A DNA stretch of 64,000 bases. Origin: Gigantopelta aegis. Its lineage: Eukaryota; Mollusca; Gastropoda; Neomphalida; Peltospiridae. The stretch is from contig NW_024532765.1 of assembly GCF_016097555.1 (NCBI RefSeq), positions 124,001-188,000 on the forward strand, read 5' to 3'. The notes beneath the pieces are model-generated. The model was not told the DNA's origin. It saw only the letters and a list, made by a program, of their open reading frames with translations, and did no database searches. Every line of letters begins with the position of its first letter. Within the stretch, counting starts at the first letter, position 1. The position numbers were made by a program, and so were the translations under genes. Below, one piece after another: positions 3,013-53,218 of the stretch.

Positions 3013-3336
3013 GTATGTTCACACTGTTCGTCACTATATGGCATGCTGTGTATGATGTTATCACCGTATAGTATTACTTTCCAATGAACCACTTTAAAAT
3101 TAATTTTACTCTGAACTAATATATTATATATAGCATATTATTACTTTTTCATACACAACAAAAATAGTTCACCACTATGCCACAATTAGTACTATTAATA
3201 ATATGTTATAACAGGCTTTTTGGTTAATGGATGACAAGATTTTTTCTCGGTGTTTTTTCATGTAATAAAAAGTAAACTGATATATGTATTATCAATACTT
3301 AAAAAAATATTTAACAATGTTTTATTTTACATCTAG

Positions 3337-5159: not shown

Positions 5160-5181
5160 AATGTATAGAAGTGCTATTTTG

Positions 5182-5516
5182 TAAATGTTTTAATGATGTA
5201 TGTGATGTATGTTTTAATGCATTTATCTCAAATCTGTAGTAAAAATATTCAAATTGTTTTAATGATGTGCATCTATGTATGTTTTAATGTATTTAACTTA
5301 AATCCGTAGCAAAAATATTCAAATTGTTTTTAATGATGTATGTGATGTATGTTTTAATGTATTTATCTCAAAACCGTAGCAAAAATATTCAAATTGTTTT
5401 AATGATGTACATTGTATGTGATGTATATTTTAATGTATTTATCTCAAATCCATAGCAAAAATATTCAAATTGTTTTAATGATGTGCACCTATGTATGTGA
5501 TGTATGTTTTAATGCA
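5182..5516 (+). repeat. Tandem repeat, unit about 70-77 bp, between four and five copies
   Basis: Units begin TGTTTTAATGATGT and end GCAAAAATATTCAAAT. Copies differ by indels in a GTATGTGATGTATG segment. The array abuts the 3' inverted repeat of the Ginger element and the last unit runs into it. Confidence 0.8.
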
Positions 5517-12120: not shown

Positions 12121-12700
12121 TGACAACCCCCCCCCCCCCCCAAAAAAAAAACCCACGGCAAATACAGAAATAAAATAACAAATAGTTGAAACATAAACTC
12201 ACGATTTTTGTTTATTATTATTATTTGGTTTATTTTTATTTTTTATTGTTTTTATTATTGGTTTTGGGTTGTTGTTTTTTTTGTTGTTTTTTATGGAGCT
12301 ATCTTAAGGACCACTGCGGACGCGTGTGCAGGAATTTTGGCAAAGGGAGAGGGAGGGGTCAGACTGAGGTGAGCAACGTTTATAGGGGTTGACACGCTCC
12401 ACAGGACAATTATTGGGGGGAAAAACAACAGAAAACAAAATTTGCTTAAACGGGATTGAGCAAGCGATTATTATTATTATTATTATTTATTTTTATTTTA
12501 TTTATTTTGGGGGGATGAGGGGGAAGCAAGGGTTTGTTTGCTTTTGGTTTTTTTATGGAACTCCGTACACAGTACCACTGCAGACGCGTGTGCAGGGATT
12601 TTAGCATGGGGAGGTCTACACGGAGGCGAGCGAAGTTTACGGTGAGGGTCGAGACATGTTCCCCGAAAAATGTATCACCAAAAACATTTGCTTGTACAAG
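12121..12700. repeat. Low-complexity region with duplicated segment
   Basis: Poly-C/poly-A near 12127-12151 and T/G-rich simple sequence. The phrase 'ccactgcggacgcgtgtgcagg' near 12312 recurs imperfectly near 12573, each followed by a G-rich run, suggesting a diverged tandem duplication of about 260 bp. Confidence 0.5.
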
Positions 12701-12704
12701 GAGA

Positions 12705-13269
12705 TGGGTATGTGTGCATGTGTGAGACGGGTGGATACATGTAGTTTAACCCTGGGCTACACCTCACCCATGTGTGCGTATGTGAGATGGGCGGATACAT
12801 GTAGTTTACCCCTGGGCTACACCTCGCCCATGTGTGTATGTGTGCGTGTGTGAGATGGGAGGATACATGTAGTTTACCCCTGGGCTACACCTCGCCCATA
12901 TGTGTATGTGTGCGTGTGTGAGATGGGCGGATACATGTAGTTTACCCCTGGGCTACACCTCGCCCATGTGTGTATGTGTGCATGTGTGAGATGGGTGGAT
13001 ACATGTAGTTTACCCCTGAGCTACACCTCGCCCATGTGTGCATGTGTGAGATGGGTGGATACATGTAGTTTACCCCTGGGCTACACCTCGCCCATGTGTG
13101 CATGTGTGAGATGGGTGGATACATGTAGTTTACCCCTGGGCTACACCTCGCCCATGTGTGCCTGTGTGAGATGGGTGGATACATGTAGTTTACCCCTGGG
13201 CTACACCTCGCCCATGTGTGTATGTGTGCATGTGTGAGATGGGTGGATACATGTAGTTTACCCCTGGGC
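12705..13269 (+). repeat. Minisatellite, 60-bp unit, about nine copies
   Basis: The unit reads GATGGGTGGATACATGTAGT, then TTACCCCTGGGCTACACCTC, then GCCCATGTGTGCATGTGTGA. Three or four copies are lengthened by GTGTGTATGTGTGC-type expansions, the rest are exactly 60 bp. Because 60 is divisible by three and no frame hits a stop, both strands show long open frames; these are by-products of the repeat. Confidence 0.9.
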
Positions 13270-14020
13270 CTGCACAGACAGAAAACATTGTGGCACAATC
13301 ATTTTTGCTTAATACACAACATAATGTCCTCTAACCGTACTGATCTGCGAAACTAGCTCAACTGTTAGTACTGTTCCCGAATCATAGTTATTAATTATGC
13401 TTATCCATAAAAATAATGGTACACTGACAGTTCAAAAACACGCTGCTTAAGAATTATTTTGTTCTATCTGCACTTTTTCGAAATGTTGGGAAATTGAATT
13501 TGAAAGTTTGAGGTGTTGGTATTACTAAATAAGCTTTTATTACAAGGCACCAGGTATATCATATGTATTTTTAACTTGAACACTGTCAATTGGGCATATA
13601 AAATTCGACAAAATATTAGTAAATACTCCAAAACAACAAAATAAGACTTTGAGATAGAACATAATAATTACAACAAATGAAACTTACGCAGAAAATTATA
13701 CTGTTCTATCTGCTTTACAATAGATTTGCCCATAGGTTTCTTATAAAGTGGAATAGGCAATGAAAATTTCACATTTTCTTTATCCTGCAGCTTCCAGTAA
13801 GTGAAAACATATTTCGTAAAGATCAAATATACTTTAATAAATGATATCCATGTAACAAATAGAAAAATATTTAGTTTTTTTGTTTTTGGCAATGCAAACT
13901 ATAGCACTTAGTTATATGCCAACTCTGAAACGCATTAAATAAAATTAGTATTCTATTAAAACATGTGCTTTTAATAACTTGTAAAACAAAAACAAAAGGC
14001 CAACTTCTGGAAACTGTTTA
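13270..14020. other. Left part of an inverted-repeat structure; no gene
   Basis: Contains ATTATTTTGTTCTATCT (13453-13469), AGATAGAACATAAT (13652-13665) and ACTGTTCTATCT (13700-13711), which pair with inverted copies at 16194-16205 and 16234-16250. Confidence 0.5.
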
Positions 14021-14056: not shown

Positions 14057-14754
14057 TTAGTTAGTGTTGATTTCTGCCTGTGGAATATTGTTCCATTCCT
14101 GAATAAGTGCTTGACGAAGTTCGTTGACGTTAGCGGGTGGGTTGGGACGACGCCTCAATCGTCTGTCCAGACTATCCCAGACATGCTCGATGGGGTTGAG
14201 AAACGAGCTCATTCAATAACACAACAGTCAGCATAGCGTTCATTTCTCCTACGGTAGACGCGCACCCTGCCATCACCACATTGTAAAGAAAATCTGGATT
14301 CATCCGAAAAAATAAAGGTATTTCAGCGTCGCCGTATCCAACGAGTGTGTACACGTGCCCAATTAAGACGATTTACACGATGACGTTGCGTTAAAACGCA
14401 TCCGACGTAAGGACGTCGTGCATGTAAACTGTTCTCCTGCAGACGATTACGAACAGTTTGCCCACTGATTCGGTTATTATGAAGCCCAGGTGTGTTAGCA
14501 GCAGTAGCAGTGGCAGTTTGGAATCGATTGCGCAAATGCGTGTTCATGATATAGTGGTCTTGACCATGTGTTGTAACACGCGGACGTCCACGACGTGGCA
14601 AGTCGTTGGTGCTTCCTGTCGTTCGAAATCTTACACGAAGATTTCGTATCGCTCGACTAGAACTCCCAACATGCCTTGCAACGTCTTCTGTCGACATGCC
14701 AGCATCAAGCATGCCAATCGCCCGTTCGCGTAAATTATTGGGTATTCTTGGCAT
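14057..14754 (-). pseudogene. Tc1/mariner-type transposase pseudogene with internal deletion
   Basis: From the minus-strand ATG at 14754 the frame gives an N-terminal helix-turn-helix pair (ERAIGMLDAGMSTEDVARHV, then SSRAIRNLRVRF), a basic linker (PRRGRPRVTT) and a second HTH segment (SGQTVRNRLQ). This is the bipartite DNA-binding domain of Tc1-like transposases. After about 143 residues the frame shifts. Remnants of the first catalytic motif (DESRF-like, near 14300) and of the C-terminus (LNPIEHVWDSL-like, near 14190, then ANVNELRQALIQEWNNIP) follow almost directly, so the central catalytic region with the second Asp is missing. The final stop is at 14059-14057. A terminal sequence TATACTGAACAAAAAAAGAA reads inward on the minus strand near 15069-15050. 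Not functional. Confidence 0.8.
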
Positions 14755-15199
14755 ACTAAAAATGCTACAATGTAAAAAATGTTAATTGTTTTACAAATTT
14801 TGAAGCGTTTTCGTTCACTTGACAACAATGTCAGTAAGACAAGTAAAACAAATTGACCGAATACTACACGGGACATGTCAAACCATGCATGCACGTGCAA
14901 ATTGAATTTCACGTTGTCGACAATTAACAGTGCAAAAATAATCGATAAAATTCATGAATCCTGATAATACAGCTCAAGGCTACCTATATAATTTCATTAC
15001 ACAATGAATTCTTTAACACAACAAATACTATATGTACAAATTGGAAGTTTCTTTTTTTGTTCAGTATACATTTAGAAAACCACCACAAAAAAGAAGAAAA
15101 AAACATAAAACAATCCTTAAACACATTGCAGAAGAAATGGGATCCGATGGAAAACAACTACAACATGTACATGTAATCTCGACTGTGGTAAATAAGAGA

Positions 15200-20154: not shown

Positions 20155-23100
20155 CTAAACAAGATGGACATCAAGACAATATTCATAATCATATATATAT
20201 ATATAAAACATAATAACAATGTCCAATGGCATAAAATATTTAACATAATTAATATTTTTTAATATATATATATAGTAATAAAAGGTAGAGAGTAGATAGA
20301 ATAGAAATGGGATAGTTGAGAAAAAGTATAATAGTAATGATCCTATTGTTGGAGCTAACCTTATATGGGACAGTAAAATCAGAATAATAAGTGAGTTCAA
20401 CTCGAATCTCTTACTTTCAGCTATATATTTATGTACTGATTTAAAAATTAAATTGTTTTCTTCAATTGGTAGGTTTATTGACCCGGATAGTAGTAGATAA
20501 ATGTCTAAGATATCAAGGTAATTCCGTAACGATGCAAATAATTCATATCTTTGTCTGATGAACAGAGGGCAGACATTAAAATAATGAAAATTATCTTCAC
20601 AGTTATCTCCACATGCACAGCTTGGGCTATCAGAAAGATGGCTTAAAAATAAATGATAGTTTAAGTTGCTAGCATAGTTACGAAGCTGACAATGGATAAT
20701 GTTACATTTACGATTTCCATAAATATAGAAGATAGGATTGGGATTTCCCTTTTTTATTAAAAAAATGTATAGGTACAATGTACGCAGACATGGTTCATTT
20801 TGAGTTAAACTGTCAAGATTATTCCATAACTCCAAAGTATTAGGAATAAAGCTGTTTTTATATGAATTAGTATGGCATGTTGGTGGAGTTAAATGGACGT
20901 TGATTTCTGAGTGTAAAACGATTAGTGGGATTAACATAGAGCAAGATTTCATCCAGCAGATATTGAGGTGTTTCGCCTTTAAGTATTTTATGCATTAGAA
21001 TTAATTTACTATTTTTGAGACGTTTATATAAAGGTTCCCAACCAAGTTCCTAATATAGTCTGTCTAGAGATGTTCCTTTCCCAAGTCCTGTAATGATACT
21101 GGCAGCTTCAAGTTGCACTGACTCGATTGTATTGGATTCTTCAGCTGTACAATTATCCCAAATTATATTACCATATTCTAAGACTGGTCTTAAAAATGCA
21201 ACATACAATTTAGTTAGGGAATTTCTATTTAATTTATATTTTAACATACGTAGAATGTCGTTTACAAGCTTTAGTATATATGTCATTAATATGATCTGTC
21301 CATCTACCATTGGAGTTTAAAGTAAGCCCTAGATGTTTGTGGGAGGTTACATTATCAAGAGGAATTCCATTAAGATATAGCTTAGGAATATCAATATGTA
21401 GTTTTCTTGTGAATAACATTGATTTGGTTTTAGTTATACTAAATTCAACTCCCCAGCTCATGTATAGATTCTAAGACTTCATTTAGCATTTAGGCTGTAG
21501 AAGTATGGTCACTGACAATGCAGTATAAAGAGGTGTGTCGATCATCAGCAAATAATTTTATTTTATTAGATACATTGTCTACTACATCATTTATGAATAT
21601 TAAGAAAAGATATGGCTCAAGTATAGATCCCTGTGGTACTCCAGCATTGATATTCCTCCAATTTGAGAAGTAACCATTAAGTTTTACTTTCGGACAAATA
21701 ACTGCTGAACCAATTATGAAGATTATCACAGATACCATATTTCATTAGTTTAAAAATTAAACCTTTATGCCATACCCTATACAAATCTAATGTCCTTGCC
21801 ATTATCTAGTTTTTTAATTATATATACATGTTTGTATAGTATCATAAATAATTAGTAGCTGATTAGTTTTAGAATCTTTTGATCTGAAGCGTGACTGATT
21901 ATTAGTAAGAATATTATGATCATGAAGGTTTTTAAATATAATTTTTTTCTAAGATTTTGCCAAAGCAATTTGTTACAGAAATTAGTCTATAATTTGAGGG
22001 ACTCTTACATAATATCACCTTTACCTTTATATATGGCTGTAACATTGGCACACTTCCAGTCCCGTGGCACACAACCTAGTGAGAGAGATTTGTTAAAAAT
22101 TTTGGTTAGTGGTGTTACAAGGGACTGACAAATGGATTTTATTAACTTAGGTGACATATTGTCTGGTACCGGCGGTTTGTCGACATTAAGGGTTTTAATC
22201 TGATCGAGAACATCTTGTTCTGAGATTACAATATTAGATAATTTATATGGGGACAGTAGATTGATATTGGGTAGATTTGGTTCGTTTTCAATTCTCGATA
22301 TGGAGGCAAAATAATCATTTAACGCATTTGCTTTATCTCTTGGATGAAGGTGAATGTGATTACCATCAATAATTGGGCTTGATACTGTTTTTATTTCTGA
22401 ATTTGCTAATGGATTTTGCCAGTTTTCACCATTGGTTAATGGGGGTTGTTTTGTCCATCAGTGTATTTTGTAATTTTGTAATATAGTTTTGTTTGGCCTC
22501 TCTAATCATATTAACTCCCTTGTTACGATGTTCTCTGAAGTTTTTCCTTTGCTCAGGACTATTTTTAAGTTTAGCTTTTTTATGAGATCGGTTGCGTTTT
22601 CTAATGGCTTGCCTGATACCTTTATTTACCCAGGGTTTATCATTGGGACGTACACCAATAATCTTCTGTGGAATATATTTATTGATTGTGTGATTTAGTA
22701 CATTATTAATAATTTCGCTACATACATTAATATCATTTATGTTATCAAGTTTCTGGTCCCAGTCAATTTGTAATAAATGGGTTGTAATTAAATCATAATT
22801 AGCATTTTCATAATCTAATACTGTTTTTGTATAGGACTGTTCACGAAGTGAACTGAAGTGTATTTCAATAATTGATGGACAATAATCACTACAAAAGTTT
22901 GGCAGTACCATACTATTCCTAATAAGATCAATGTTATTGATAAAAATTGGGTCTAATAGTGTTGATGTGCTAGGGGTGATTCTTGTAGATTCGTGTATAA
23001 TATTTTCCAGGTCATATTTTCAATAGTTTGTGCAAAAGGATGATTGCGATGTATTTTAACAGGTCCTCGTTAAAGTCACCTACAAAATGTACAATGATAA

Positions 23101-23297
23101 TATTAGGAAACATATTTGTACATTTATCGATTAATGAATCAATTTTGTCCCAGGATGATATTCTGGCATTGGGTGGTCTATATACACATACAAGGAGAAA
23201 TTTATTTGTACCAGTATTGATTTCTACACATACTACTTCAAGGTCCATAAAGACAGGATCATTAAAGCGTTTGGCAATTAAGTTGTTTCGGATATAC
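20155..23297 (-). pseudogene. Non-LTR retrotransposon (jockey/CR1-like) endonuclease-reverse transcriptase relic, main part
   Basis: Minus-strand segments, frame-shifted and stop-containing, occur in the order of an ORF2. Endonuclease: VCVYRPPNARIS then VGDFNEDLL (about 23190-23060). Linker: KPWVNKGIRQAIRKRNRSH (about 22650-22590). RT fingers: VPRDWKCANVTAIYKGKGD (about 22080-22020). RT catalytic: GVPQGSILEPYLF then LFADD (about 21650-21540). RT thumb: TKTKSMLFT, HKHLGLTLN, then LRPVLEYGNIIWDNC (about 21440-21140). C-terminal Cys/His motif: CACGDNCEDNFHYFNVC (about 20620-20570). At least five frame breaks make it dead. The 5' end of the endonuclease continues at 24604-24840 beyond a pogo-like insertion. 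Confidence 0.85.
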
Positions 23298-23589
23298 AGT
23301 ATAACCTTGATTTAACGCCAACAAATGTTCCAAAATAATTTTAGCATTATATCGAGTTGGCGGTATAGTGAGGGTGCCTTGGTTTACTACCAAACTTAAT
23401 TTTTTTTTAAGTTGTTGAATGTCAAGAATATGACATATGTTTTAAATGTAAATAACAGTAACAAAAGTAACAACAACCAGGTAACAACATTATTATTTTA
23501 TTTGTCTATAAACATGGCAAGTCAATACACAAAAACGTAAAACGCGCACATGTATGTGTTTCAATCGATCTGTGAAATACATTTATTTT

Positions 23590-26887: not shown

Positions 26888-28683
26888 CATACATGTACTA
26901 TCACGCTAAATGCACATACATCATGCTAAATGCACATACATGTACTATCACGCTAAATGCACATACATCATGCTAAATGCACATACATGTACTATCACGC
27001 TAAATGCACATACATCATGCTAAATGCACATACATGTACTATCCTGCTAAATGCACATACATCATGCTAAATGCACATACATGTACTATCCTGCTAAATG
27101 CACATACATCATGCTAAATGCACATACATGTACTATCCTGCTAAATGCACATACATGTACTATCCTGCTAAATGCACATACATGTACTATCCTGCTAAAT
27201 GCACATACATCATGCTAAATGCACATACATGTACTATCATGCTAAATGCACGTACATGTACTATCATGCTAAATGCACATACATGTACTATCCTGCTAAA
27301 TGCACATACATCATGCTAAATGCACGTACATGTACTATCATGCTAAATGCACATACATGTACTATCCTGCTAAATGCACATACATCATGCTAAATGCACA
27401 TACATGTACTATCATGCTAAATGCACATACATGTACTATCATGCTAAATGCACATACATGTACTATCCTGCTAAATGCACATACATCATGCTAAATGCAC
27501 GTACATGTACTATCATGCTAAATGCACATACATGTACTATCCTGCTAAATGCACATACATCATGCTAAATGCACGTACATGTACTATCATGCTAAATGCA
27601 TGTACATCATGCTAAATGCACGTACATGTACTATCATGCTAAATGCACATACATCATGCTAAATGCACATACATGTACTATCATGCTAAATGCACGTACA
27701 TGTACTATCATGCTAAATGCACATACATCATGCTAAATGCACATACATGTACTATCATGCTAAATGCACGTACATGTACTATCATGCTAAATGCACATAC
27801 ATCATGCTAAATGCACGTACATGTACTATCATGCTAAATGCATGTACATCATGCTAAATGCACGTACATGTACTATCATGCTAAATGCACATACATCATG
27901 CTAAATGCACATACATGTACTATCATGCTAAATGCACGTACATGTACTATCATGCTAAATGCACATACATCATGCTAAATGCACATACATGTACTATCAT
28001 GCTAAATGCACGTACATGTACTATCATGCTAAATGCACATACATGTACTATCCTGCTAAATGCACATACATCATGCTAAATGCACGTACATGTACTATCA
28101 TGCTAAATGCACGTACATGTACTATCATGCTAAATGCACGTACATGTACTATCATGCTAAATGCACGTACATGTACTATCATGCTAAATGCACATACATC
28201 ATGCTAAATGCACATACATGTACTATCATGCTAAATGCACGTACATGTACTATCATGCTAAATGCACGTACATGTACTATCATGCTAAATGCACATACAT
28301 CATGCTAAATGCACATACATGTACTATCATGCTAAATGCACATACATGTACTATCCTGCTAAATGCACATACATCATGCTAAATGCACGTACATGTACTA
28401 TCATGCTAAATGCACGTACATCATGCTAAATGCACATACATGTACTATCATGCTAAATGCACATACATGTACTATCATGCTAAATGCACATACATGTACT
28501 ATCCTGCTAAATGCACATACATGTACTATCATGCTAAATGCACATACATGTACTATCCTGCTAAATGCACATACATCATGCTAAATGCACGTACATGTAC
28601 TATCATGCTAAATGCATGTACATCATGCTAAATGCACGTACATGTACTATCATGCTAAATGCACATACATGTACTATTATGCT
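26888..28683 (+). repeat. Satellite array of 20-bp and 27-bp units with higher-order pattern
   Basis: The short unit is TGCTAAATGCACATACATCA. The long unit is the same with GTACTAT inserted before the final CA (27 bp). Roughly 70 units occur. At the left edge long and short alternate (47-bp period); further right the pattern is mostly two or three long plus one short (74 or 101 bp), once four plus one (128 bp). Three long-unit subtypes cluster by position: ATCACGC (left edge), ATCCTGC (mainly 27040-27300 and scattered) and ATCATGC (most of the right part). Open frames in the array are repeat by-products. Confidence 0.95.
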
Positions 28684-28812: not shown

Positions 28813-29024
28813 TTGTTGGGTGACGGGAGGGTCCAGTTTTTCATTTGACCTCAAATGTCAAAGAAACTTTTACAGTGTGCAAAGTTTCATGTTTTCTAGT
28901 CCGAAAGGGCGTATAAATAAAGTTTGGTTAAGAAAAGTATTCACTTAATGTGTGCGCTGCACAACATGCTATCCTGAAAGAGTGAACGATTTTTTCAGCT
29001 TAGCCGCTCAGCCCGCTGGACTAC

Positions 29025-29476
29025 AGGTTGCACTATACCAATTAATTTCCGGCTGGGTCGAAGTTCGAGGTGTACCGAACTTGTGATAGAGAAGTTAACA
29101 CCACAAGTCCTGTGATTGGTTATAAATGTGAGTGTGTTGGTTGTAAAAAAAATTAGTTTCATCTGGGCTAAAAATGTATGCAATTTTATTTGATGTAGTA
29201 CCACCGTGTCAAGTAGCCTTGTGCTTGGAACATGTATGGGGTACCTGTAAAAAAAAGTACTAAAATTTTGTGCGAAACTAGGGGTGTTGCAGAAACATCT
29301 GGTTATACCGAAAATGAGCCATGAAAGGTACCATTTTCTGCAGTTAATACTTTGAGGTAGGGGTTGTAGTACTGATATTTATGGGTCACAGTTTGGTTGA
29401 TATATTGCATATAGTGTTTTTAAACACAAACGTTAACATGGTCGCCTATGGGATTTGAATTGGTATAGTCCAACCT
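29025..29476. mobile_element. 452-bp MITE, copy 1
   Basis: Ends are inverted: AGGTTGCACTATACCAATT (29025-29043) and AATTGGTATAGTCCAACCT (29458-29476). It is the same length as, and by eye base-for-base identical to, copy 2. No coding capacity; the short minus-strand open frame is shared by both copies and has no recognisable domain. Confidence 0.85.
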
Positions 29477-31095
29477 ATAGCACATATTCAGTGCATAATA
29501 AAAAAGATTATGATTTTTGTGATTTAATTAAATTAAACTACACTATTTGATTAATTAGCCGTCACTCGGCCATGCAAGTTCGCAATGACCTTGACCTTGA
29601 CAATAATTACTGTACATAGCTCTGAATGGAGTTTGAACAAAAATTAGCACTGAGGAAAAGTTGGTTTTGGCCTATAATTCATACTATACAGATTTGAATG
29701 TTCTTATTTACATGGTGTTTGACTTGCCATATACAACTGCTCTTAAATATGTTAATATATCTAGGCAGTCTGAACTTAGATTTTAATAGCAATTTATTTT
29801 TACATTAAAAATAACATGTGCCAATATTGGGATAATGTCTTTAACTTCTATAAACATAGTTAATGTTTCATGTGTGTACTTCTGATAGCTTAACTTTTTA
29901 AAGACCTTGATTTTTATTGTCCTTTTGGCATATTTATAGGGTGCTAAGTCATATTTTAGACAAATTTGTAGTTTTAGGGGAAACATTTTTTTACTTTGAA
30001 GAATTTTTTTACCAAAGCCATAATTAAATTTTTTGTCACTATCGTGCCTTCTGTTCTCTCTTATACATAACAATAAGCTTGTTAAACATATCTTTAGGTC
30101 TCCAGATCAAATTTTTTTTTAAAATAATCACTTAGTTTGCTCCCATGAAGTGTATTTTAAGTGTATACTAGATTTGGAACCAATTTTTCCAGATTTGATT
30201 ATCTACCTTGGTGTAATTTGATGATTTATTTTATTGTTAATGCTGTATTATCCAATGTTAATAGCTAAATGATATGCTGGATTACAGATTGTAGGAATAC
30301 ATCCAATATACATATTGTATTGATCTGGATTAGAAAATAATGCAATAAAATAGATGTTCGGGTAATTATGTCACTTAAAAACAGGTTTTTTTAGTAATGA
30401 ATCAAAAATAAATATGCGAAAGCTGCATGATAATTCCAGATATCACAAATTTTTAAAACCTCCAACTACAGTAGGGTATACATAAAATATAGTCAGGAAT
30501 ATTGGTGGCTGCCAATGGTTTTGATGGTCCAATTTGAAAATCTGCATAGCTGATGGATTTGAAATTCCCGCACATGGTAACTTGAAGATGCCCACACTCA
30601 GCATACAGGATTTTCTTCCAACAGTGATGTGCAGGACATTAAGTCATTACTTCATACAGATGCAGTCATGTTGGTTTTTCCTTCCTCAGACATTGTATTT
30701 TTTTAATACTGATATTTCTTTGATGTGCCTATTGAGGTCTTCATAATCTAGGGGTCAGTCAAGTACACGTGTTTCAATGGAATAAGTTTAAGGAGTTGAG
30801 GTTCTCTGAATAGCCATGCTGTCTCTACATATATAGCTGAGCACACACACACATCTGACAATAAATATCTTCATGAGTATTATTTTTTTTTAAATTATTT
30901 TTTCAAATATGACATATTGCATTTGTACAAAACTGTACAAAATACATGTGTTTTGTGAGGTGTACATTAAATTAGGTTGCACTGTAGAAACAACAGTTTC
31001 AGTGAGGTTGTCAGTTTATGTCAGAAGACACCAGATCCTGGTTGTCATAAAAACACATGATTCACCACCTTTTGAAACATGTATGTTATCAGTAT
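29477..31095. other. Stretch between the two identical MITE copies; no gene
   Basis: AT-rich, with (CA)n near 30843-30851. No coding exon or repeat boundary supported. Confidence 0.4.
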
Positions 31096-31547
31096 AGGTT
31101 GCACTATACCAATTAATTTCCGGCTGGGTCGAAGTTCGAGGTGTACCGAACTTGTGATAGAGAAGTTAACACCACAAGTCCTGTGATTGGTTATAAATGT
31201 GAGTGTGTTGGTTGTAAAAAAAATTAGTTTCATCTGGGCTAAAAATGTATGCAATTTTATTTGATGTAGTACCACCGTGTCAAGTAGCCTTGTGCTTGGA
31301 ACATGTATGGGGTACCTGTAAAAAAAAGTACTAAAATTTTGTGCGAAACTAGGGGTGTTGCAGAAACATCTGGTTATACCGAAAATGAGCCATGAAAGGT
31401 ACCATTTTCTGCAGTTAATACTTTGAGGTAGGGGTTGTAGTACTGATATTTATGGGTCACAGTTTGGTTGATATATTGCATATAGTGTTTTTAAACACAA
31501 ACGTTAACATGGTCGCCTATGGGATTTGAATTGGTATAGTCCAACCT
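31096..31547. mobile_element. 452-bp MITE, copy 2 (identical to 29025-29476)
   Basis: Same inverted ends as copy 1, flanked by TA on each side (…GTA|TAGG / ACC|TACA ambiguity of one base). The flanking sequence differs from copy 1, so this is two insertions or a conversion event, not a larger segmental duplication. Confidence 0.85.
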
Positions 31548-44550: not shown

Positions 44551-47460
44551 TAATAATAATAATAATAATAATAAAATTCTTTATTTTCAGAGGGTAAACA
44601 CATTCAGTACAAGGTGACTGGTCTCCCATGAGGCCCTCTCTAATCTATACATGATATTATACATACATACATTCAAAGAAACAACATCAACATACATGTA
44701 ATATGTATAGCATGAGGAACAATAACACATATTATGAATATATAAATAATATTTAAATCAATTTGTTAAGAAACTTGAGTCAGTGATAACTCAATACATC
44801 ATAATTATTTTAACAAACACAAAATCAACAACAAAGGTATATCTTAAAATTGATTATTATTTGAATAGTGCTTAAAATAACTGGATTTGAATTTGAATGA
44901 GGCGAGGGATTGAGAATATTTTATCTTTGAAGGTAGTGTGTTCCACAGTTTAGCTCCCCTGCATGAAAAACTATGGCGATAAAATTCTGTTCTTGGTTTT
45001 AATTCATAAAGGTGATTATGTTGAGTTGACCTCAGATTTAAGGAGTGAATTTCTGAAGTTGTTTGAAACATTGTTTCTAGATATGATGGAGATAGTTTGT
45101 TGAGGACTTTGTAGACAAACTGGCAGGTTCTAAAGTCAATTCTCTCTTTGATTTTAAGCCATTTGAGAGAGCTAATTATTTCTGCAGTGGACATTTCTTT
45201 GCTTTTTTCAGTAATAAGTCTTGCAGCTTGATTTTGGATTTTTTGAAGTTTTCCTATAGAATGTTTTGAACAGGTTCCCCAAATTGTGGAGCAATAGTCT
45301 AAGTGAGGTAATATGTAAGAGCTGTAGAATATTAATCTGGTCTTTTGGTCAAGATATTTTCTGTTTTGTTGAAAAATGTATAATAAATAAGAAGATTTTT
45401 TAATAATGGCATTTATGTGGTTAGCCCATGTCAGTGTTGGGTCAATGTGTACACCAAGAAGTTTTTCAGAAGTGGAACATTGCACTGGTATGTGATCTAC
45501 ATATACAGTCAATGCTGTTGAGGTTTCTGCAATCGAGGTCAGTTTTTTTAGAAGAACCAATAAGCATGATTTTAGTTTTATTTAAGTTAAGAGACATCTT
45601 ATTATGGTTGCACCAAAGACTCACCTCATTCAAATCTAACTGGACATGTTTTTCTAACAGAGATATGTCATCAGCTACAGATGTGGAGCTTACATCATCA
45701 GCAAACAGATCCATGACACAATGCTTTGCATAGAGTGGCAGATCATTGATATATAATGCAAACAAAGTGGGGCCAAGTACTGATCCCTGTGGGATGCCAT
45801 ATGAGAGATTAAGAGGATCAGATCGGGCTTTGCCAAGAACAACAGTTTGTTTTCTACCCGAGAGATATGATTCAAACCATTTTAGAGATTTTGAATCAAA
45901 GTGATAGATGCTTAGTTTCTTCATGAGTATATCATGATCTATCATGTCAAATGCTTTTTTAAAATCAATGAATGTAGCTGAGACAAATTTACCATCATCT
46001 ACTGACTTTTGCCAATTATTAACAATTCTAAGTAGAGCTGTTTCACAGGAATGTTTGGTTCTAAATCCAGATTTAAATAAAGGAGTTTGTATTCTTCGAA
46101 GAATTCAGATAATGCTTTATGCACATGTTTTTCCATTATTTTAGACATTATTGGCAATATAGAAATTGGTCTATAGTTTTCACACTTTTGTCTATCCCCA
46201 GTTTTAAATAATGGAGTTATTTTTGCATGTTTCCATTGCTCAGGAAATATCCCTGATGTTATGCTGTTGTTGATGATGGTTACAAGTGATGGGGTTATAA
46301 CAGCTGAAGCCAATTTAACAAAGTGTGGTCCTATGTCATCCAATCCCATTGATTTTTTTACATCACAGTTCTGAAGTTGTTCAAATACAAATGCACTTGA
46401 GACTAGTGGAATGGTGAACTTGACAGTACTTGTTATTTTACTATCAACAAAAATCTGATAATTGTTTTAAAGGTGTTGTTATTGGAAGGTGTAATGGTTG
46501 ATTTTGCCTGTTCAATTACATTGATAAAATAATGATTAAAGTGATTACATATGTTTTGTTTGTTTATTACTTGGTGGTTGCTGTCATCCTTAATGGAGGC
46601 TATGGAAGTGTTATCTTTGGGATTAAGATTTCGAAGAATTTTGTGAATGGCAGCTGGGTTTGATGTGTTTTTTTTAACAGCATTTCGCAGGTAGTTTGTT
46701 TTAGCTTTGTCAATCAATGAGTTGACTGTATTACGCCAATATTTGAATTGCCGTTCTTTTTGTTGTTTTTTGCAAAGGTCTCTCATTTTCATAGCACCTA
46801 TAATTTGATCTGTATGCCATGGTTTAAGTTTGGTATGCATAACCCTATGTTCAGTGAGTGGTGCATGGTTATTCACTACTTCAGTTAAACAGGCACAGAG
46901 AGTATTGCGAGCAGTACTGGGGTCAGATACATTACTTACTGGTTCAAGAGTATTTGATAAGTCATTCAAAAAGTGACTCTGGTCAAAATGCTTCAGGCAT
47001 CGATATTGAAGCGTGATGTGATGATTCTTTTTAATAGGTGCAGCCTTCGATTTATAAACAATGCAGACAGGGAAGTGGTCACTTATTCCAAGTTTGGGTA
47101 CAAAGCAGCGATTAACCTTTGCTTTGCTTGTAACATAAACATGATCAATAAGTGTTGAAGAATTTTCTGTAACTCTTGTTGGCTCATTAATTATTTGCTC
47201 TAGATTATATGCTTTACAGATATTAATAAATTCAGAATGTTTTGATGTTAGCAGGTCTATATTAAAATCACCCATTATAATCAGTTCTTTGTTAAGTGTG
47301 ATAGCTTTTTCTATATTGGCATGAAATTGTTCAAACCATATAATCTTGGCATTTGGTGGTCGATAAAGAAAAGCCACAAGAATAGATTTAGATTTATATG
47401 GAAGTATTTCCAACCATATTACTTCAAGTTCATCGCTCCTAAATTTGCTATTGGGCGTCT
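44551..47460 (-). mobile_element. 5'-truncated CR1/L2-like non-LTR retrotransposon
   Basis: On the minus strand it starts inside the endonuclease (about 47460) and ends in a 3' UTR with AATAAAG and an (ATT)n tail (complement of the AAT run at 44551-44575). Short-unit 3' tails and 5' truncation are typical of CR1/L2-type elements. It sits between the TIR element ending near 44522 and the first exon of the TerD gene at 47528, opposite in direction to that gene. Confidence 0.85.
44844..47459 (-). pseudogene. Endonuclease-reverse transcriptase (ORF2) relic of the CR1/L2-like element
   Basis: Long minus-strand frames cover, in order: endonuclease SILVAFLYRPPNAK, IIMGDFNIDLL and LGISDHFPVC (47400-47080); a connector rich in Lys/Arg; RT fingers FPEQWKHAKITPLFKTGDR and CENYRPISILP (about 46240-46130); RT palm YGIPQGSVLGPTLFALYIND and MDLFADD (about 45810-45690); KLLGVHIDPTLTW and YILPHLDYCSTIWG thumb (45460-45270). 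It finishes with a conserved tail ending KHYSNNNQF and a stop at 44844. Frame changes occur near 46433, 46000 and 45466, with few stops, so it is younger than the copy at 20-25 kb. The endonuclease N-terminus is missing, so it cannot be autonomous. Confidence 0.85.
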
Positions 47461-47527: not shown

Positions 47528-47650
47528 TACTCAACATTTGCTGGCTTAAAAATGAAGTGCAGAAAGTGCAATGAAGAAAAGTTAAGATGTGCTTTTCCCC
47601 CTGAAGATCTGTCCAAGAAGTGTAGACATCCACGATTTTACTGCATGAGG
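47528..47650 (+). CDS. RING-like/Ubl/TerD gene, exon with zinc-binding module (first of three found)
   Basis: A pyrimidine tract ends in TTTTTTTAG at 47527, and the exon ends at a consensus donor AGG|GTAAGC (47650/47651), phase 0. The frame is open from the acceptor, so either ATG 47552 is the start (MKCRKCNEEKLRC) or coding continues from an unseen upstream exon. From Met1 it gives C3-x2-C6, then CAFPPEDLSKKCRHPRFYC with C24-x-H26 and C31. The next exon supplies C34, C45 and C50. The spacing resembles a RING-type C3HC4 cross-brace but is not canonical (H26-x4-C31, C45-x4-C50), so RING-like is an inference. The gene's job may be ubiquitin-linked stress response. A 5'-truncated retrotransposon lies 70 bp upstream, so the promoter is not evident. 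Confidence 0.75.
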
Positions 47651-47680
47651 GTAAGCTTGTTTCACTGGTCATTAAGTTTG

Positions 47681-48083
47681 ATGACAGTAACTCTTTTCAC
47701 CCTTGTTTTGGCTTCATACACAATAAATAAAACATATCTTACAGTAATTTAACTTGAAATTCATATTTCGTAAAAGGTACAATTTTTTAATTACAAGATT
47801 TTCTTCAAACACATTCAAGTGCATTAGTAATGTTGAAACAAAAAAATTTCAATTGTAATTTTTCCAGCATTCTTAAAATGGAAATGTCATATATTCAGTT
47901 TATAGTTATTGTAAGGAGATGCATGCAAAGTGATGTCATTGGAATACTGACATCATTCAAATTCAAAATGAGTTATATTATTACAAATCAATGCTTCACC
48001 ATATTAAAATAAAAACTGGTCTACTAGCTAACTTTGACCCCTATCAAAATTCTATAACAAGCAGATAACACTGTTTACAGGTC
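47681..48083. repeat. Diverged copy of the TIR element at 61776-62348, in the first intron
   Basis: GACAGTAACTCTTTTCACCC and the following 'ttgttttggcttcatacacaataaa' match the left end of the intact copy, and similarity continues through 'actggtctactagctaac...cctatcaaaattctataac'. The right inverted end is not recognisable. It begins about 30 bp after the exon's donor site. Confidence 0.7.
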
Positions 48084-48380
48084 AATCACTACCAGTATTA
48101 TATATTGGCAAGCTGTGATGACTACCAGTAGATAAAATTTCAATATTTTTGGTCAGTGATCATAATTTACAAATGTAGCTTTTTGGGACAAAACTGCATT
48201 TACTCTAGATATAATCAGCAAAGAAATATTGTCTTTTGATCATACAAAAAAGTGCAGTGTAAACAAACGATGAAAGGTTAAAAAAATAATTAATAAATAA
48301 CTTTAGACAATGTGTCCACCTACTACATGTAGTTTGGAAAATGGTACTGTTGATATTTATTTCATTTATTTGTTATATTA

Positions 48381-49980
48381 TACTACTCAAAAGAATTTAA
48401 GGGTCAAAAATTTATAACCAAATAAGTTTCAGAGTGTATTAGATTGATGATGTAAACTACACCAAAAATTTAATTTATTGTTCCATATTTACAAAAAACC
48501 ACAAATAAACGTCACTGTATACAAGAAAGTCACATGACATGCTGTCAAAGTTGAAGGTTGTCAAACATGGATTTTACACATTAGAACATTCGTTTAATAG
48601 TGTGTGAATCCACCCCTGGCGCGAATACACTCGACACATCGTTGCCTCATGCTGTTGATCAGACGTCTGAAGGACTCTTGGGGAATGGCCTGCCACTCTG
48701 CCATAAGAAGTTGACCCAGATCATGAAGGTTGGCCAGAGGGGCATGGTTATCCTGAACTCTCCTGCCTAATTCGTCCCAGGTGTGCTTTATTGGGGCCAA
48801 GTCAGGCGAATATGCTGGCCAATCCATCCTGGCGATACCTTGTTGTCTGAGAAAGTCCGTTACCAACCTGGCGCGGTGGGGTCTGGCAATGTCATCCTGC
48901 AGAACTCCCCCGCCCCGCCGCCAATCTGCTGAAGGCCTGGGAGAACCAACGGCCGGATAATCTCATTCAGATAGCGGATTCCATTCAGATTGCCATCCAC
49001 CAAATAGAGGGGGTCCTGTGGTGGATAGAGATGCCGCCCCACACCATGACGCTGCCACCACCGAACCGGTGACGTTGTCTAACGTTAACGTCAGCGAAGC
49101 GCTCCCCAGGACGTCTGTAGACACGAACCCGACCGTCGTTGAACTGGAGACTAAACCTGGACTCATCAGTGAACATCACTCGACCCCACTGAACACTGCA
49201 GACGAAGTGTGCACCAGTGACGTCTGGCCGTTCTGTGACGTGGTAGGAGTGGTGGTCGAACAGCCTGGCGACGGCAGCGTAGATTATTGGCTCTCAGACG
49301 ATTGCGTATGGTTTGATCAGACACTCGAGTTCCAGTCGCAGTCCGCAGATTGTCACGTAATCGGCGTGCAGTGGTTGTGCGTTGACGTAGAGCCATATTG
49401 GTGATGTAGCGGTCCTCTCTATTTGTAGTGCTTCGGGGTCTTCCCGAACGTGGACGATTTCGAACAGAATTCGTTCCTTGGTACCGTTGCCACAGTCGGC
49501 CAACGACACTCTGACTGACACCAAGTCTCAGAGCAACATTTCTTTGCGTATTGCCATCCTGAAGCCAAGCAATAGCCTTCCTCGATCTTCGATAGTCAGT
49601 TGACGTCGTACCATTGTCGAATTTGGAGTGTGCACCGTACACGAACGCAAGCTCTAATTATATGGAAATTCAGCATTGGGAACATGGAATACACGTGCAA
49701 AGCATGCAAATGAAGCGCTTTGTGAAAAAGCAAGTTATAGGCACTTAGCAGACCTTTCGCTTTCGCCCTAATTTACGTGCAAATGTAAGCATGTTTTCGC
49801 CATTAGAATTAGTCGACAGTGTCAATGACAGTGGATTTTAATTCATTTATGGGTTGCTTAGACCCACTTTCGTCAAAATGGAACAATACCATGCGTGACA
49901 TTATGGTCTAGCTAATATAATTGACATTCAGAAAATAATGTCGAAAATATCATCTGACCCTTAAATTCTTTTGAGTAGTA
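48381..49980 (-). mobile_element. Tc1/mariner-type transposon, complete ends, in the TerD gene's first intron
   Basis: Perfect inverted ends of at least 24 bp, TACTACTCAAAAGAATTTAA with GGGTCA at 48381 and its complement ending at 49980, flanked by TA. Length 1.6 kb is usual for Tc1. The single gene inside runs on the minus strand. End-to-end preservation makes this the best-preserved DNA transposon here. Confidence 0.9.
48594..49642 (-). pseudogene. Tc1-type transposase pseudogene
   Basis: N-terminal HTH pair: KAIAWLQDGNTQRNVALRLG and SQSVVGRLWQRYQGT, basic hook RPRSGRPRST, second HTH SDQTIRNRLRANNL (49600-49250). Catalytic part: MMFTDESRFSLQ with the first Asp, GGGSVMVWGGIS, LQDDIARPH with the second Asp (about 48905), and WPAYSPDLAPIKHTWDEL. 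In active Tc1 enzymes the last motif is ...NPIE; here the catalytic Glu is Lys (APIK), 34 residues after the second Asp. Three frame changes break the gene (near the N-terminus at 49620, near 49170, and between 49040 and 48860). Inactive on both grounds. Confidence 0.85.
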
Positions 49981-51549
49981 TATACATAGAACTGCAGACA
50001 AGAAAAGATATATTTGGTAACCGAAATGTTTTAGAATCTTTTAAATTCCATCGAGAATTAAGTTTGAAGTTTTCAAAACAATTTGATTTCTATATAAAGT
50101 TTTGAAATGTATGTATACATGTACTTATCTTGATTTTTGTATTGTGTATTTTTCCACACAGCTTTTTACACAAGCTGTGGTCTTACATAATTACCATATA
50201 TAATTAAAATTTTTACTATAAATAATCATATTCATGTACTTATCTTTGTTTGACACCCAATAGCCGATGCATATTGTTGTGCTGGGGTGTCGTTAATCAT
50301 CCATTCATTCATTATCCTGTTCAGGTCGAATTGTGAACGTGAATTAAGGTTAGAATATAGCAGACAGGTAATATATATATTTTTATTTTTTATTTTTTTA
50401 TTAGCAGCATTTGCTATCAGTTTAAAAATTGATTAGCATCACGACGCAATATTGAACAAAATGTTCCCTGTTCACTATTCAACCTTCACAGAATAAGGCC
50501 ACGGTCTTAAATCTGAATGACAAAACTATATTTCCAGATCAAAATCGTATCTCTGCACAAGGCAGTCAAAAAGACATTAGGAAAAGTTAAATCAGTTATT
50601 CTATTAATATGAAATCTAGGCGTTGTCATAATTCAATTCACAGCTCTTTCTATGATATCTTCAATATATCACTCATTCTTTATGAATAATTTACATTTTC
50701 AGCTTTTTCCCGGGAGCAGCACTGCCGATTACCATTGCAAATTTTAAGGGCTTCCAAAATGTAGTTATTTCTTGTATTTATATCAGGGCTGCAGAAAGTA
50801 CTCTCCCAATTGCCAAATGCGAGCAAAAATTCTGACAGATGAGTTAAAAAATACAACTACTAGTCCGACGGGTGATCTGTCTTTTTCTGGCTGACTAATT
50901 TAATTTATATACATATTTTGTTTTTGCATTGAATCCGTTGTGTGTTCTGAATAGATTGTTCTCTTAAAGCACTTTCGGGATATCACTTGAATTTTTTTAA
51001 TTTATATAAAAGAAATGTGAAACACTTAGTATTTACCAGAGAATTTCAAAATCTTTTGATTTGTCAGTCAGGGTTTGGGTCTTGTTTTTGTTTGCTACAT
51101 GATGTTGATCACTTATCAAGTGTCCTTAATTTGTTTTTGTCATTAAAAAAGATAATAATAAAATAATATGTATATATCATTTGAAGTGAAGACAGAGTAT
51201 ATTATAATATTGTTAAACAATAATATATTCTGTAGCCTGACAGACTAGTAGAAAGTCTGGTGGGCTAGTAAATTTTAGTTGGTTCTGGTCCAGTGGGCTA
51301 GTGAAATATTTTCCATTTCTGCACCCCTGTATATGTATATATGATTGCAGCATGCATGGCTTAACTCATGTTAGGGTCAGGGTTAGGGTTATGACTTTCA
51401 AAGTAGCAATACTTTGGAATAACGGACCGGCAGAATATAGACATGCCACCTGAACATTCGATCAACTCTTGTCCGTTTTGACAATCACTATGTTCAAGCA
51501 TTCATTGAAACACATAACCCTGGAATTGAAAATTATTTCTTCATTTCAG
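49981..51549. other. Rest of intron 1; retroelement tail fragment
   Basis: Near 50250-50315, 'cacccaatagccgatgcatattg...ggggtgtcgttaa' plus CATTCATTCATT resembles the 3' tail of a molluscan SINE/LINE family (from memory). No exon seen between the two coding segments. Confidence 0.5.
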
Positions 51550-51873
51550 TGTGTGATGACAACATCGGAGAAGACTGGACAGTGTCCACATCCTTCATGT
51601 GGTCAGCCGGTACCATTCAACAGCGATGTCATAAACCTCATTAAGCACACTTTAGCCAAGATGTTCAGAGAGTACACCTCTGAATATACTCCACCTTGCG
51701 TCACTGAGGCATCGGCCCACGGCATTATACGAGTGTCGGTCTTAACCGGAGACAGCACCAACATCCTGTTCAACCCAGCCATGACCGTGTTACAGCTGAA
51801 GGAGCAAATCAAGACCAAGCTGAAACATGATGTTCAGAAGCAGAAACTACTCCACCATGGAAAGGAACTACAA
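51550..51873 (+). CDS. RING-like/Ubl/TerD gene, second coding exon (end of zinc module, most of the ubiquitin-like domain)
   Basis: Acceptor TTCATTTCAG ends at 51549; donor CAA|GTAATA is at 51873/51874. The exon is 324 nt, exactly 108 codons, phase 0 at both ends. It begins CVMTTSEKTGQCPHPSCGQP, closing the zinc-binding module. A helical stretch (DVINLIKHTLAKMFREY) follows, then a ubiquitin-like fold from about protein residue 92: IIRVSVLTGDSTNILF, MTVLQLKEQIKTKL and QKLLHHGKELQ, matching ubiquitin's beta1-beta2, alpha1 and LIFAGKQLE segments in order. Reading past the donor gives a stop after six codons, supporting the splice. The preceding 3.9-kb intron contains a MITE-like repeat and a Tc1 element. 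Confidence 0.85.
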
Positions 51874-52607
51874 GTAATAGCCAAACATTAAACTTGCTAT
51901 CTTCTGATGTCACCTGTGCTGTAGTATGTCAGGATTTAAGCTGCTGCTTGTCAAATTGCCAAATATGAACTAAAGTTGTACAGTCAATCCTGTATTAAAT
52001 ACCTTTTAAACAGGTGGCTACTTAATACAGGTTTTCACTTGAGCAGGTTTTACTGTATTTAGTAACATATTTTATTGCCAATTCAAGAAACCACCAACTA
52101 ATTCTGTGTCTGATGTAGATGGACTGGCCATTTTTGTCTACAGATTTTTAAAAAATCAAATTTGGCAGTTAAATTTGCTACTAATTTTGGAGGTCCAGCT
52201 TAAACCCTCGCTATTTATTAAATACTCTTATAATGTACCTATTTAGGGTGAGGAGGATACTTCTTGACAAACTTGTTTAACTAAAAAAATTATATCATGA
52301 CATGACCATTTGACAGCAATACTCTGACTCTTAGATGGTAAGGTGTATAATGTATTATAAAAAGAACATGGTGACAAGATTTGTATGTTGTATAAGAGCA
52401 TTTAACAATATCCATTGATTCTAAAAACATGTTTGTTAAAGTTGTTTTTGTGTTTTACTTTATATTAAATACTGGATATTTGACCTTAAATTGAGACATT
52501 GAAATATGTTTACTTCCAAAATTAAATAACGTGACCTGTAATATTTTGCCTTCACTAACATAATATATTTAAAGGTAATTTTCTCACTGGCATATTCCTT
52601 TTTTCAG

Positions 52608-53218
52608 GCGTTTGGAAATGGAGGACATCAAATGACTCTGAGTGAATATAACATACAGCCAAATGAAACGATTCACCTGGTGGTTTTGCTGTATGCCATT
52701 CCTGATGCTTTTGATCATGTGGTCTTGTGGTCTATTGGGGATATCCATCCACTGGACGAGATTACTTGGATGCATCTTGCATGCTTTTCAGTGGGCAAGG
52801 TCATTATAAGACTGTTGATTACAGGCACCGTTATATAGATGGTAATTCAGTAACACACTCGGGAGATGTCATGAATGACATTCAGTGCATTGGTCATCAC
52901 ACCATTCATGTTTACTTGAAGAAGTTGCCCAGTAATGTAACACATTTGTTTTTTACACTCAGTGCTTGGCACTCCCCAACAATTGCTCGGTATCCTAACC
53001 CAAGTTTAAAATTCTTTGAAGCTTCTAATCAGAATAAAGACCTTTGCAAGACAACATTCACACACGCCAGACACAGCCAGGCTGTTGTCATGTGTTCTTT
53101 ATCCCGCTCAAGTGCTGGATGGCAGATATTTGAATCTGGAAAGCTTTCTGCAGGAAATGCTAGGAAATATGGTCCTCTGAAGACTACTATTAGAGGTTTG
53201 ATCTTGGAAGGATATTAA
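52608..53218 (+). CDS. RING-like/Ubl/TerD gene, last exon (end of Ubl, TerD domain), with apparent frameshift
   Basis: The acceptor TTTTTTCAG ends at 52607. The first 31 codons complete the ubiquitin-like domain (MTLSEYNIQPNETIHLVV, equal to ubiquitin's TLSDYNIQKESTLHLV). DAFDHVV then starts a TerD domain, but at about 52720-52727 the frame must move by one missing base: the first frame ends at a stop (52836-52838) while the second stays open to TAA 53216-53218. The second frame has TerD hallmarks: YWGYPSTGRDYLDAS, THSGDVMND, IHVYLKKLPSNVTHLFFTLS and a final strand region with GWQIFESGKLS. The conserved DYLDAS and HSGD acidic groups are the calcium-binding positions of TerD proteins. No Gly-Gly follows the Ubl, so it is an integral domain. 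The frameshift may be a base-call error, an allele, or recent loss of function. Confidence 0.8.

Follow-up and report, generated by a model that had tools for sequence, protein, structure and literature searches.

Does the three-exon gene in the window, a 64,000-nucleotide stretch of the Gigantopelta aegis genome, encode one protein in which a RING-like zinc module, a ubiquitin-like domain (Ubl) and a TerD domain are joined, as the initial annotation proposed, and what might such a protein do? Most discussion of TerD domains concerns bacterial systems for tellurite resistance, stress responses and anti-phage defence.

Gene structure and annotated product

The gene corresponds exactly to the 217-aa RefSeq protein LOC121391062 (P0016): the exons, joined and translated up to the stop at 52838, give P0016 letter for letter. 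The features of the locus are as follows.

47552-47650, + strand: exon 1, from the ATG; residues 1-33 with zinc-ligand positions C3, C6, C24, H26 and C31; open frame and GT junction in the DNA, residues identical in P0016
48379-49982, - strand: Tc1-type DNA transposon in intron 1, with 59-nt inverted ends, 76% complementary
51550-51873, + strand: exon 2, residues 34-141; zinc-ligand positions C34, C45 and C50, a helical linker, and the Ubl up to its final third; AG/GT junctions, phase 0
52608-53218, + strand: exon 3, 611 nt; end of the Ubl, then the TerD-coding part in another frame (PF02342 match in the 52715-53218 frame)
52725-52732, + strand: frame break between ...FDHVV and YWGYP..., a point across which intact relatives continue in frame
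52736-53218, + strand: TerD-coding stretch seen from ORFs and PF02342, 160 codons plus stop with zero internal stops, out of frame relative to exons 1-2

The frame of exon 1 stays open upstream to 47528, immediately past a TAG, and the Ubl begins at about 51721 in exon 2. The splice junctions read AGG/GTAAGC and TTTCAG/TGT for intron 1, and CAA/GTAATA and TTTCAG/GCG for intron 2, all in phase 0. An intact paralog on contig C7 has two introns, identical in position and phase to those of the window gene. These junctions, the identity to P0016 and the C7 introns confirmed the three exons with GT-AG, phase 0 boundaries that had been read from the DNA. The transposon, whose ORFs match Pfam HTH_Tnp_Tc3_2 (E 2.4e-13) and DDE_3 (E 5.7e-7), is not part of the gene's function; the matching intron on contig C2996 has an empty site.

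A frame break separates the TerD-coding part

The length of exon 3 is 2 mod 3. The Ubl-carrying frame ends at 52838 without entering TerD, which is readable only in the 52715-53218 frame. A PF02342 search of the same genome also recovered the TerD stretch (C602:176763-177140). In the model of the 217-aa product the block means were at least 92 across the zinc and Ubl parts, except residues 71-90, and still 92 at residues 161-170, after which they dropped to 66 and to 51-45, with low confidence beyond residue 180. As assembled, the window copy yields the RING-like part, the Ubl and then a junk tail, without TerD, and the continuous three-domain protein claimed for it cannot be read across the break. 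Because it is broken as assembled, this copy matters little in itself. It is either a recent pseudogene or carries an assembly indel.

PacBio assemblies of the wtdbg2/Racon/Pilon type can retain single-base errors. According to its description (PMC7895826), the host assembly used PacBio reads and wtdbg2, with two rounds of Racon and one of Pilon, and this pipeline favors a leftover indel in a gene that is intact in the animal, an explanation to which we give slightly less than an even chance. It is also in keeping with the absence of stops in the 160 codons past the break, with a branch no longer in the tree than that of the nearest relative, and with the annotation of a protein at the locus by RefSeq. 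It sits less well with the position of the locus on a 194.5-kb contig, and with the retention by RefSeq of the truncated 217-aa reading under a displayed name that carries no low-quality label. Contig C2996 also counts against it: in a near-identical copy there, exon 1 contains a stop and exon 3 numerous indels, which indicates that duplicates decay here (or that the sequence is poor).

It is comparably conceivable, if not quite probable, that the break is real and that the locus is a recent pseudogene among several decaying duplicates, with the C7 and C8 paralogs retaining function. Contig C2996 holds two more partial or degenerate copies, 97-98% identical in places, and the transposon of intron 1 is missing from the C2996 copy, both of which fit this explanation. 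A single defect in 1,034 exon bases does not, nor does the C2996 tail copy, which has no stop in its 122 codons and differs at 3 amino acids. The changes between the window and C2996 copies were too few for a useful dN/dS. It is very unlikely that the truncated product is itself useful without TerD, as a dominant-negative form or regulator: its zinc and Ubl parts are modelled well and RefSeq annotates it, but the tail past residue 180 is of low confidence.

Distribution of the family

Relatives with the full architecture were found in the same genome, in other molluscs, where their presence had been suggested as a check, and beyond them in amphioxus, lamprey, echinoderms, anthozoans and five genera of Glomeromycota. 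All share the order RING-like zinc module, internal Ubl, TerD in about 345 aa. The architecture extends beyond molluscs and is no isolated fusion. Domain profiles, a structure model and conservation support the three-domain reading for the gene family; it does not hold for the window copy, whose frame is broken as assembled.

No description of this architecture was found in the open literature searched, and the family, conserved in eukaryotes, is apparently undescribed. Three members by full-length similarity carry source-given names, TERZ-like (Mya arenaria), tellurium resistance protein terz-like (Gigaspora margarita) and stress response protein SCP2 (a jgi entry); no characterisation of these named proteins was found.

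In the tree, a branch of 1.41 with 100/100 support sets five fungal rows apart from 39 rows that are animal or unnamed, and the lamprey row formed a long branch (1.4). The tree has no outgroup and is therefore neutral on whether the gene passed horizontally between fungi and animals. Scans for a prokaryotic or viral source of the subfamily with profile A6 gave 52 (genome_contigs) and 47 (viral_contigs) pattern matches and zero confirmed relatives, a search that distant TerD proteins would escape. Among the family matches listed, many of them without a name, none was named as a jawed vertebrate; lamprey may have retained the family and jawed vertebrates lost it.

The zinc module

The RING part is the weakest of the three domain calls. 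The eight C3HC4 zinc-ligand positions stand in RING order, each kept in 64-65 of 65 members. The spacing is H-x4-C in all members, and C-x4-C in molluscs vs C-x2-C in the fungi, anthozoans and echinoderms shown; H-x4-C and C-x4-C deviate from the usual RING spacing. None of the Pfam RING models reached its cut-off in the five fungal proteins (zf-C3HC4 at most 16.5 bits vs 21) or in the window piece (zf-RING_2 9.1 vs 27.3 bits). By E-value, zf-RING_2 matched 8 of 65 members (best E 0.12) and 11 of 17 N-terminal pieces (best E 0.0064), and zf-C3HC4_2 matched two of 65 (best E 0.018). Lamprey P0106, Nematostella P0152 and the two vWA-containing relatives (P0125, P0126) gave no RING match at E<=1, and unrelated families matched single members at E-values like those of the RING models.

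PDB profile matches begin at profile position 20-23, omitting the first cysteine pair, and querying the PDB with a lone cnidarian N-terminus gave little information (three hits at E<=10, one of them RNF213 at 0.94). In both models a helix begins at residue 32, where the C31/C34 pair lies, with block means of at least 95 there, and their fold lists are filled by ubiquitin and TerD matches. RING-bearing chains do occur in the PDB fold lists, namely parkin 6glc_A and 6hue_A (rmsd 19.5 and 15.4), UbArk2C 7r70_B (9.9) and the Ub-TRIM21 RING 7bbd_B; they were apparently matched through their ubiquitin parts and are neutral on RING identity.

Position 5, which we take to be the hydrophobic E2-contact position of RINGs, is Leu in 19, Ile in 9, Lys in 9, Val in 5 and Gly in 4 of 65 members, and Lys in the window; this presumed contact is not conserved in the family. 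BMI-1-type RINGs are themselves poor catalysts. The module is a plausible, putative E3-like element.

Ubiquitin-like and TerD domains

The Ubl of the window pieces matches PF00240 at E 2.7e-12 (residues 93-167), and the model of the intact C7 paralog (pLDDT 90) matches ubiquitin and TerD structures. The match and the beta-grasp fold agree with a Ubl split between exons 2 and 3. A C-terminal Gly-Gly at the end of the Ubl was found in 0 of 65 members (columns of residues 160-181), where the chain runs on into TerD; the domain does not look like a conjugatable modifier.

The TerD part, in its own frame, matches PF02342 at E 5.6e-7. Against a curated cut-off of 25.3 bits, the window frame scored 29.7 and family member P0001 28.9 bits; lamprey P0106 (16.4 bits) and four of the five fungal members stayed below it. 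With the TerD beta-sandwich fold also found, the C-terminal TerD call stands for the family. Identity to the solved TerD chains listed is 12-20%, and phmmer of the window TerD half directly against PDB sequences gave zero hits, profile A6 being required.

An acidic stretch of Klebsiella TerD, GDN-x-TG-x-GDGDDE, presumably has a calcium-binding role. No intact copy of it was found in the family, where the DDE of GDGDDE aligns with Gly-His-His. Counts in the alignment of 65 members were 65 for G238, 65 for H239, 64 for H240, 65 for D228 and 49 for D232; this recount was used in place of an earlier pattern count (197 of 202 matched), which presupposed His followed by His, Gln or Arg. The suggested calcium-binding sensor is unsupported, because the acidic DDE is replaced by this conserved Gly-His-His. 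An HSGD turn and usually one further Asp are retained, so calcium binding may still occur.

Predicted function

Our preferred reading, held with a confidence just short of even, is that the locus belongs, with its frame broken, to a conserved eukaryotic family, and that the intact family protein acts in the ubiquitin pathway as an adaptor or E3-like protein, TerD being its ligand or metal sensor. The part of the RING-like module would be to bring in an E2 or to team up with a second RING. Running nearly directly into the TerD sandwich, the Ubl would serve as a fixed docking or autoregulatory surface, not as a conjugated tag. TerD would sense a stress-linked small molecule or metal at its His/Asp-rich site, and ligand binding would act as a switch for the ubiquitin signalling directed at targets or partners. 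The intact paralogs of G. aegis, such as C7, would do this job, the window copy giving at most a RING-like and Ubl fragment.

We regard as unlikely, though worth weighing, that its members act as structural scaffolds or shuttles, with a Rad23-like use of the Ubl, a zinc module that is no ligase and a TerD that binds a protein partner. The strict conservation of the eight zinc-ligand positions and of the His/Asp-rich TerD loop suggests more than scaffolding, and a UBA domain is absent from the Pfam tables shown.

A broader extension of the adaptor or E3-like reading is speculative, and we would be somewhat surprised if all of it held: an unnamed but broadly distributed animal and Glomeromycota family would connect stress or defence sensing of the Ter type with the ubiquitin system in a single chain. 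A metabolite or metal tied to stress or infection would be recognised at the His/Asp site of TerD, which would drive a RING-like E3, with an optional vWA domain and perhaps the lamprey retention and jawed-vertebrate loss mentioned above. Such a conserved animal and fungal protein would offer an experimentally tractable link from Ter sensing to ubiquitin.

Relation to known systems

Parkin and UHRF1 are E3 proteins with a Ubl plus a RING. Compared with these architectures, the family has its zinc module first and TerD last, and no RBR or SRA domain appears in the Pfam tables. With the bacterial TerD family (Klebsiella TerD 2kxt, Streptomyces 3ibz; Ter stress and anti-phage systems) it has in common the TerD fold, PF02342 and the HSGD/HTGD turn; it differs in Gly-His-His for DDE and in the fused RING-like and Ubl modules. 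Bacterial Ter systems encode vWA proteins (PMC7824862), which the vWA domain beside TerD in P0125 and P0126 echoes; it alone recalls the prokaryotic Ter gene set (TerB, TerC, vWA protein, signal-making enzymes). A eukaryotic TerD protein is cAMP-binding capA/capB of Dictyostelium (DDB_G0277501; PMC3188802); in a comparison by description, the passage on it there mentions no RING-like or Ubl module.

Three proteins submitted to PADLOC matched 0 families, and three to NCBIfam gave sub-threshold matches only. None of the best 50 of 846 matches in the viral fold library was named with all three parts. These 50 include a phage TerD-like protein, viral ubiquitins and the Barrevirus 'Ring and ubiquitin domain protein' A0A3G4ZQ93, which, compared by name and fold match (E 2.3e-6), has two of the three modules by name, TerD not among them, and is a fragment with an rmsd of 12.9 over 256 columns. 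Also among the best 50 is a 1,248-aa protein of Tetraselmis virus 1, matched over 191 columns.

A broken reading frame in the window gene

The initial annotation described a fusion of RING-like, ubiquitin-like (Ubl) and TerD parts encoded by three plus-strand exons with GT-AG borders in phase 0. Re-reading of the exon borders confirmed these exons:

47552-47650, + strand: exon 1, from its ATG; GT-AG borders, phase 0
51550-51873, + strand: exon 2; GT-AG borders, phase 0
52608-53218, + strand: exon 3; 611 bases (2 mod 3)

That the exons form a single open reading frame, as the initial annotation had it, is contradicted by the length of exon 3 and by a stop at 52838. The frame completing the Ubl reads ...LLYAIPDAFDHVVLWSIGD... 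up to this stop; a separate frame, ending at 53218, carries the TerD part (YWGYPSTGRDYLDAS...). At the break point the relatives have, continuously, FDHVxFDLYWGYP or close variants. The broken reading is retained in the RefSeq product: the translation of the three exons is, letter for letter, P0016 (LOC121391062, 217 aa) of Gigantopelta aegis, a peltospirid snail of the deep sea, which identifies the host. In the structure model of P0016 the zinc and Ubl parts are confident (block means 92-98 except residues 71-90), and the model is poor beyond residue 170 (block mean 66, then 51 to 45).

The own-genome PF02342 search (assembly of 1.149 Gb, window at G000:C602:124001-188000) gave six exon matches. 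Three lie on contig C8; C7, C2729 and C602 have one apiece, that on C602 belonging to the window gene. DNA search extended this by two partial copies, both on C2996, and by a fragment of 156 bases on C5207; the tally of G. aegis members is a lower bound. An intact copy, P0001 (LOC121377724, 345 aa), lies on C7, and its intron positions and phases are identical to those of the window gene. The window copy is a broken or mis-assembled family member.

Assembly error or pseudogene

We give slightly less than an even chance to an assembly error, the gene being intact in the animal. According to its description (PMC7895826), the assembly was built from PacBio reads by wtdbg2 and then run through Racon twice and Pilon once, so a residual indel is possible. 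The break is followed by 160 stop-free codons, and the end branch of the window gene in the tree (0.12) is about as long as the 0.13 of P0045, its nearest relative, whose partial entry of 195 aa is open across the break point. Omega against the C7 paralog was 0.13 for exons 1 and 2, 0.36 for exon 3 before the break (39 codons) and 0.29 after it; being pairwise, these values pool the two branches and are no evidence of constraint acting today.

That the window gene is a pseudogene we consider just as plausible. The small contig C2996 carries a near-identical copy in which exon 1 is interrupted by a stop and exon 3 by many indels; either duplicates decay in G. aegis or this contig is poorly sequenced. 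In this copy a tandem array occupies the place expected for part of intron 2 and for the beginning of exon 3:

L018 (the C2996 stretch with the duplicate) 4815-5303: 52-base tandem array, 9.5 units, containing a stretch of intron 2

From another copy, C2996 carries the open last 122 codons.

Extent of the family

The family is real and widely conserved. With the joined exons as query (X at the break) 228 proteins were found at E<=0.001 among 600 candidates, 120 of them listed; a profile search found 152 among 4,879 candidates (120 listed), and a lamprey query 95 among 1,898. These searches reach relatives with shared 5-residue words; within that reach, the named rows of the matches listed include no jawed vertebrates. 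Named full-length members come from gastropods, bivalves, Branchiostoma, Petromyzon, echinoderms, anthozoan cnidarians and five Glomeromycota genera (Gigaspora, Funneliformis, Glomus, Rhizophagus, Entrophospora):

P0161, P0167, P0193, P0194, P0199: full-length members from the five Glomeromycota genera

The fungal proteins are 31-36% identical to the lamprey query over 93-98% of its length and retain the landmarks of the zinc, Ubl and TerD parts. Numerous entries, some 190-240 aa long and missing the front half, appear to be exon 3 alone, read from genomic contigs as a single exon.

In the largely open-access literature covered on TerD, tellurium resistance and the G. aegis genome, no description of the RING-like–Ubl–TerD architecture was found; an earlier mention is possible, and the family is apparently unstudied.

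The N-terminal zinc module

In 65 members, picked from the 120 listed matches leaving out partial and redundant rows, C6, C24, H26, C31, C34 and C45 are kept in all, C3 and C50 in 64. Of the 104 retrieved proteins with 320 aa or more, 93 fit a spacing pattern that was written after the sequences had been seen. Eight of the 11 misses have a truncated or different N-terminus (P0034, P0047, P0056, P0063, P0065, P0067, P0099, P0124); the others are the lamprey protein P0106, with a longer last loop, and the vWA proteins P0125 and P0126, which differ at the K-L position.

A4, a profile of family N-termini, has 17 PDB matches up to E 10, the best at 0.018: PCGF5, COP1 (3), BMI-1/PCGF4 (7, one named B lymphoma Mo-MLV insertion region), RNF4 (4), an equine herpesvirus RING and an entry under the name COMMD3, probably a BMI-1 read-through. 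COP1 and BMI-1 are RING proteins. The matches start at profile position 20-23, leaving the first cysteine pair uncovered. Among 25 of 48 Pfam families listed for the whole proteins were zf-RING_2 (8/65, best 0.12) and zf-C3HC4_2 (2/65, best 0.018). Of 17 N-terminal pieces, 11 had a match to Pfam RING models (best 0.0064), and zf-C3HC4 matched all five fungal proteins under the cut-off (E 0.008-0.14). Some unrelated families reach similar E-values in one or two members (DUF7729 0.0013, PHDvar_NSD 0.014), and the N-terminal piece of the window gene gave a RING match only at E 2.1. On these results together we call the module RING-like.

Possible function

P0125 (Mercenaria) and P0126 have a vWA domain ahead of the RING-like, Ubl and TerD modules; VWA_4 scores over its cut-off in each (E 3.9e-7 and 3.7e-9, respectively). 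For prokaryotic Ter systems, TerD is described as a domain that binds a ligand and may act as a signal sensor, alongside the vWA protein TerF (PMC7824862). PMC3710099 speaks of a 'TerD-dependent anti-phage system'. These parallels make the putative sensor role of TerD more likely.

We tentatively picture the family protein as E3-like or an adaptor, in which TerD would be the sensing part and the RING-like and Ubl parts would act on the ubiquitin system. The main alternative, a scaffold or shuttle with no ligase activity, seems somewhat less likely.

A TerD-like fold also occurs in a chain of the Chlamydomonas radial spoke (PDB 7jtk_A), a further use of this fold by a eukaryote.

Mobile elements and repeats

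The following elements were found in the window:

2064-3071, + strand: ORFs, frame changing; one matches integrase (rve) below threshold, at E 1.6e-4
12605-13298 and 27959-28308: short-tandem-repeat ORFs
14323-14781, - strand: second Tc1-type transposase N-terminal ORF (HTH_Tnp_Tc3_2, E 2.8e-12)
20155-23311, - strand: ORF run that reads like another reverse-transcriptase element
28995-29378 and 31045-31449, - strand: ORF pair with a common long stretch, about 2 kb apart
45466-47458, - strand: non-LTR retrotransposon remnant (RVT_1 E 7.7e-23, Exo_endo_phos_2 E 2.9e-11, in separate frames)
48379-49982, intron 1: transposon of Tc1 type; inverted ends of 59 nt, transposase domains HTH_Tnp_Tc3_2 and DDE_3

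No Pfam match was obtained for ORF 44844-45581, or for ORFs 20158-20994 and 22429-23019 of the 20155-23311 run. The non-LTR remnant ends about 90 bases ahead of exon 1. The corresponding intron on C2996 (L018, about 2677) is without the Tc1-type transposon and represents an empty site.
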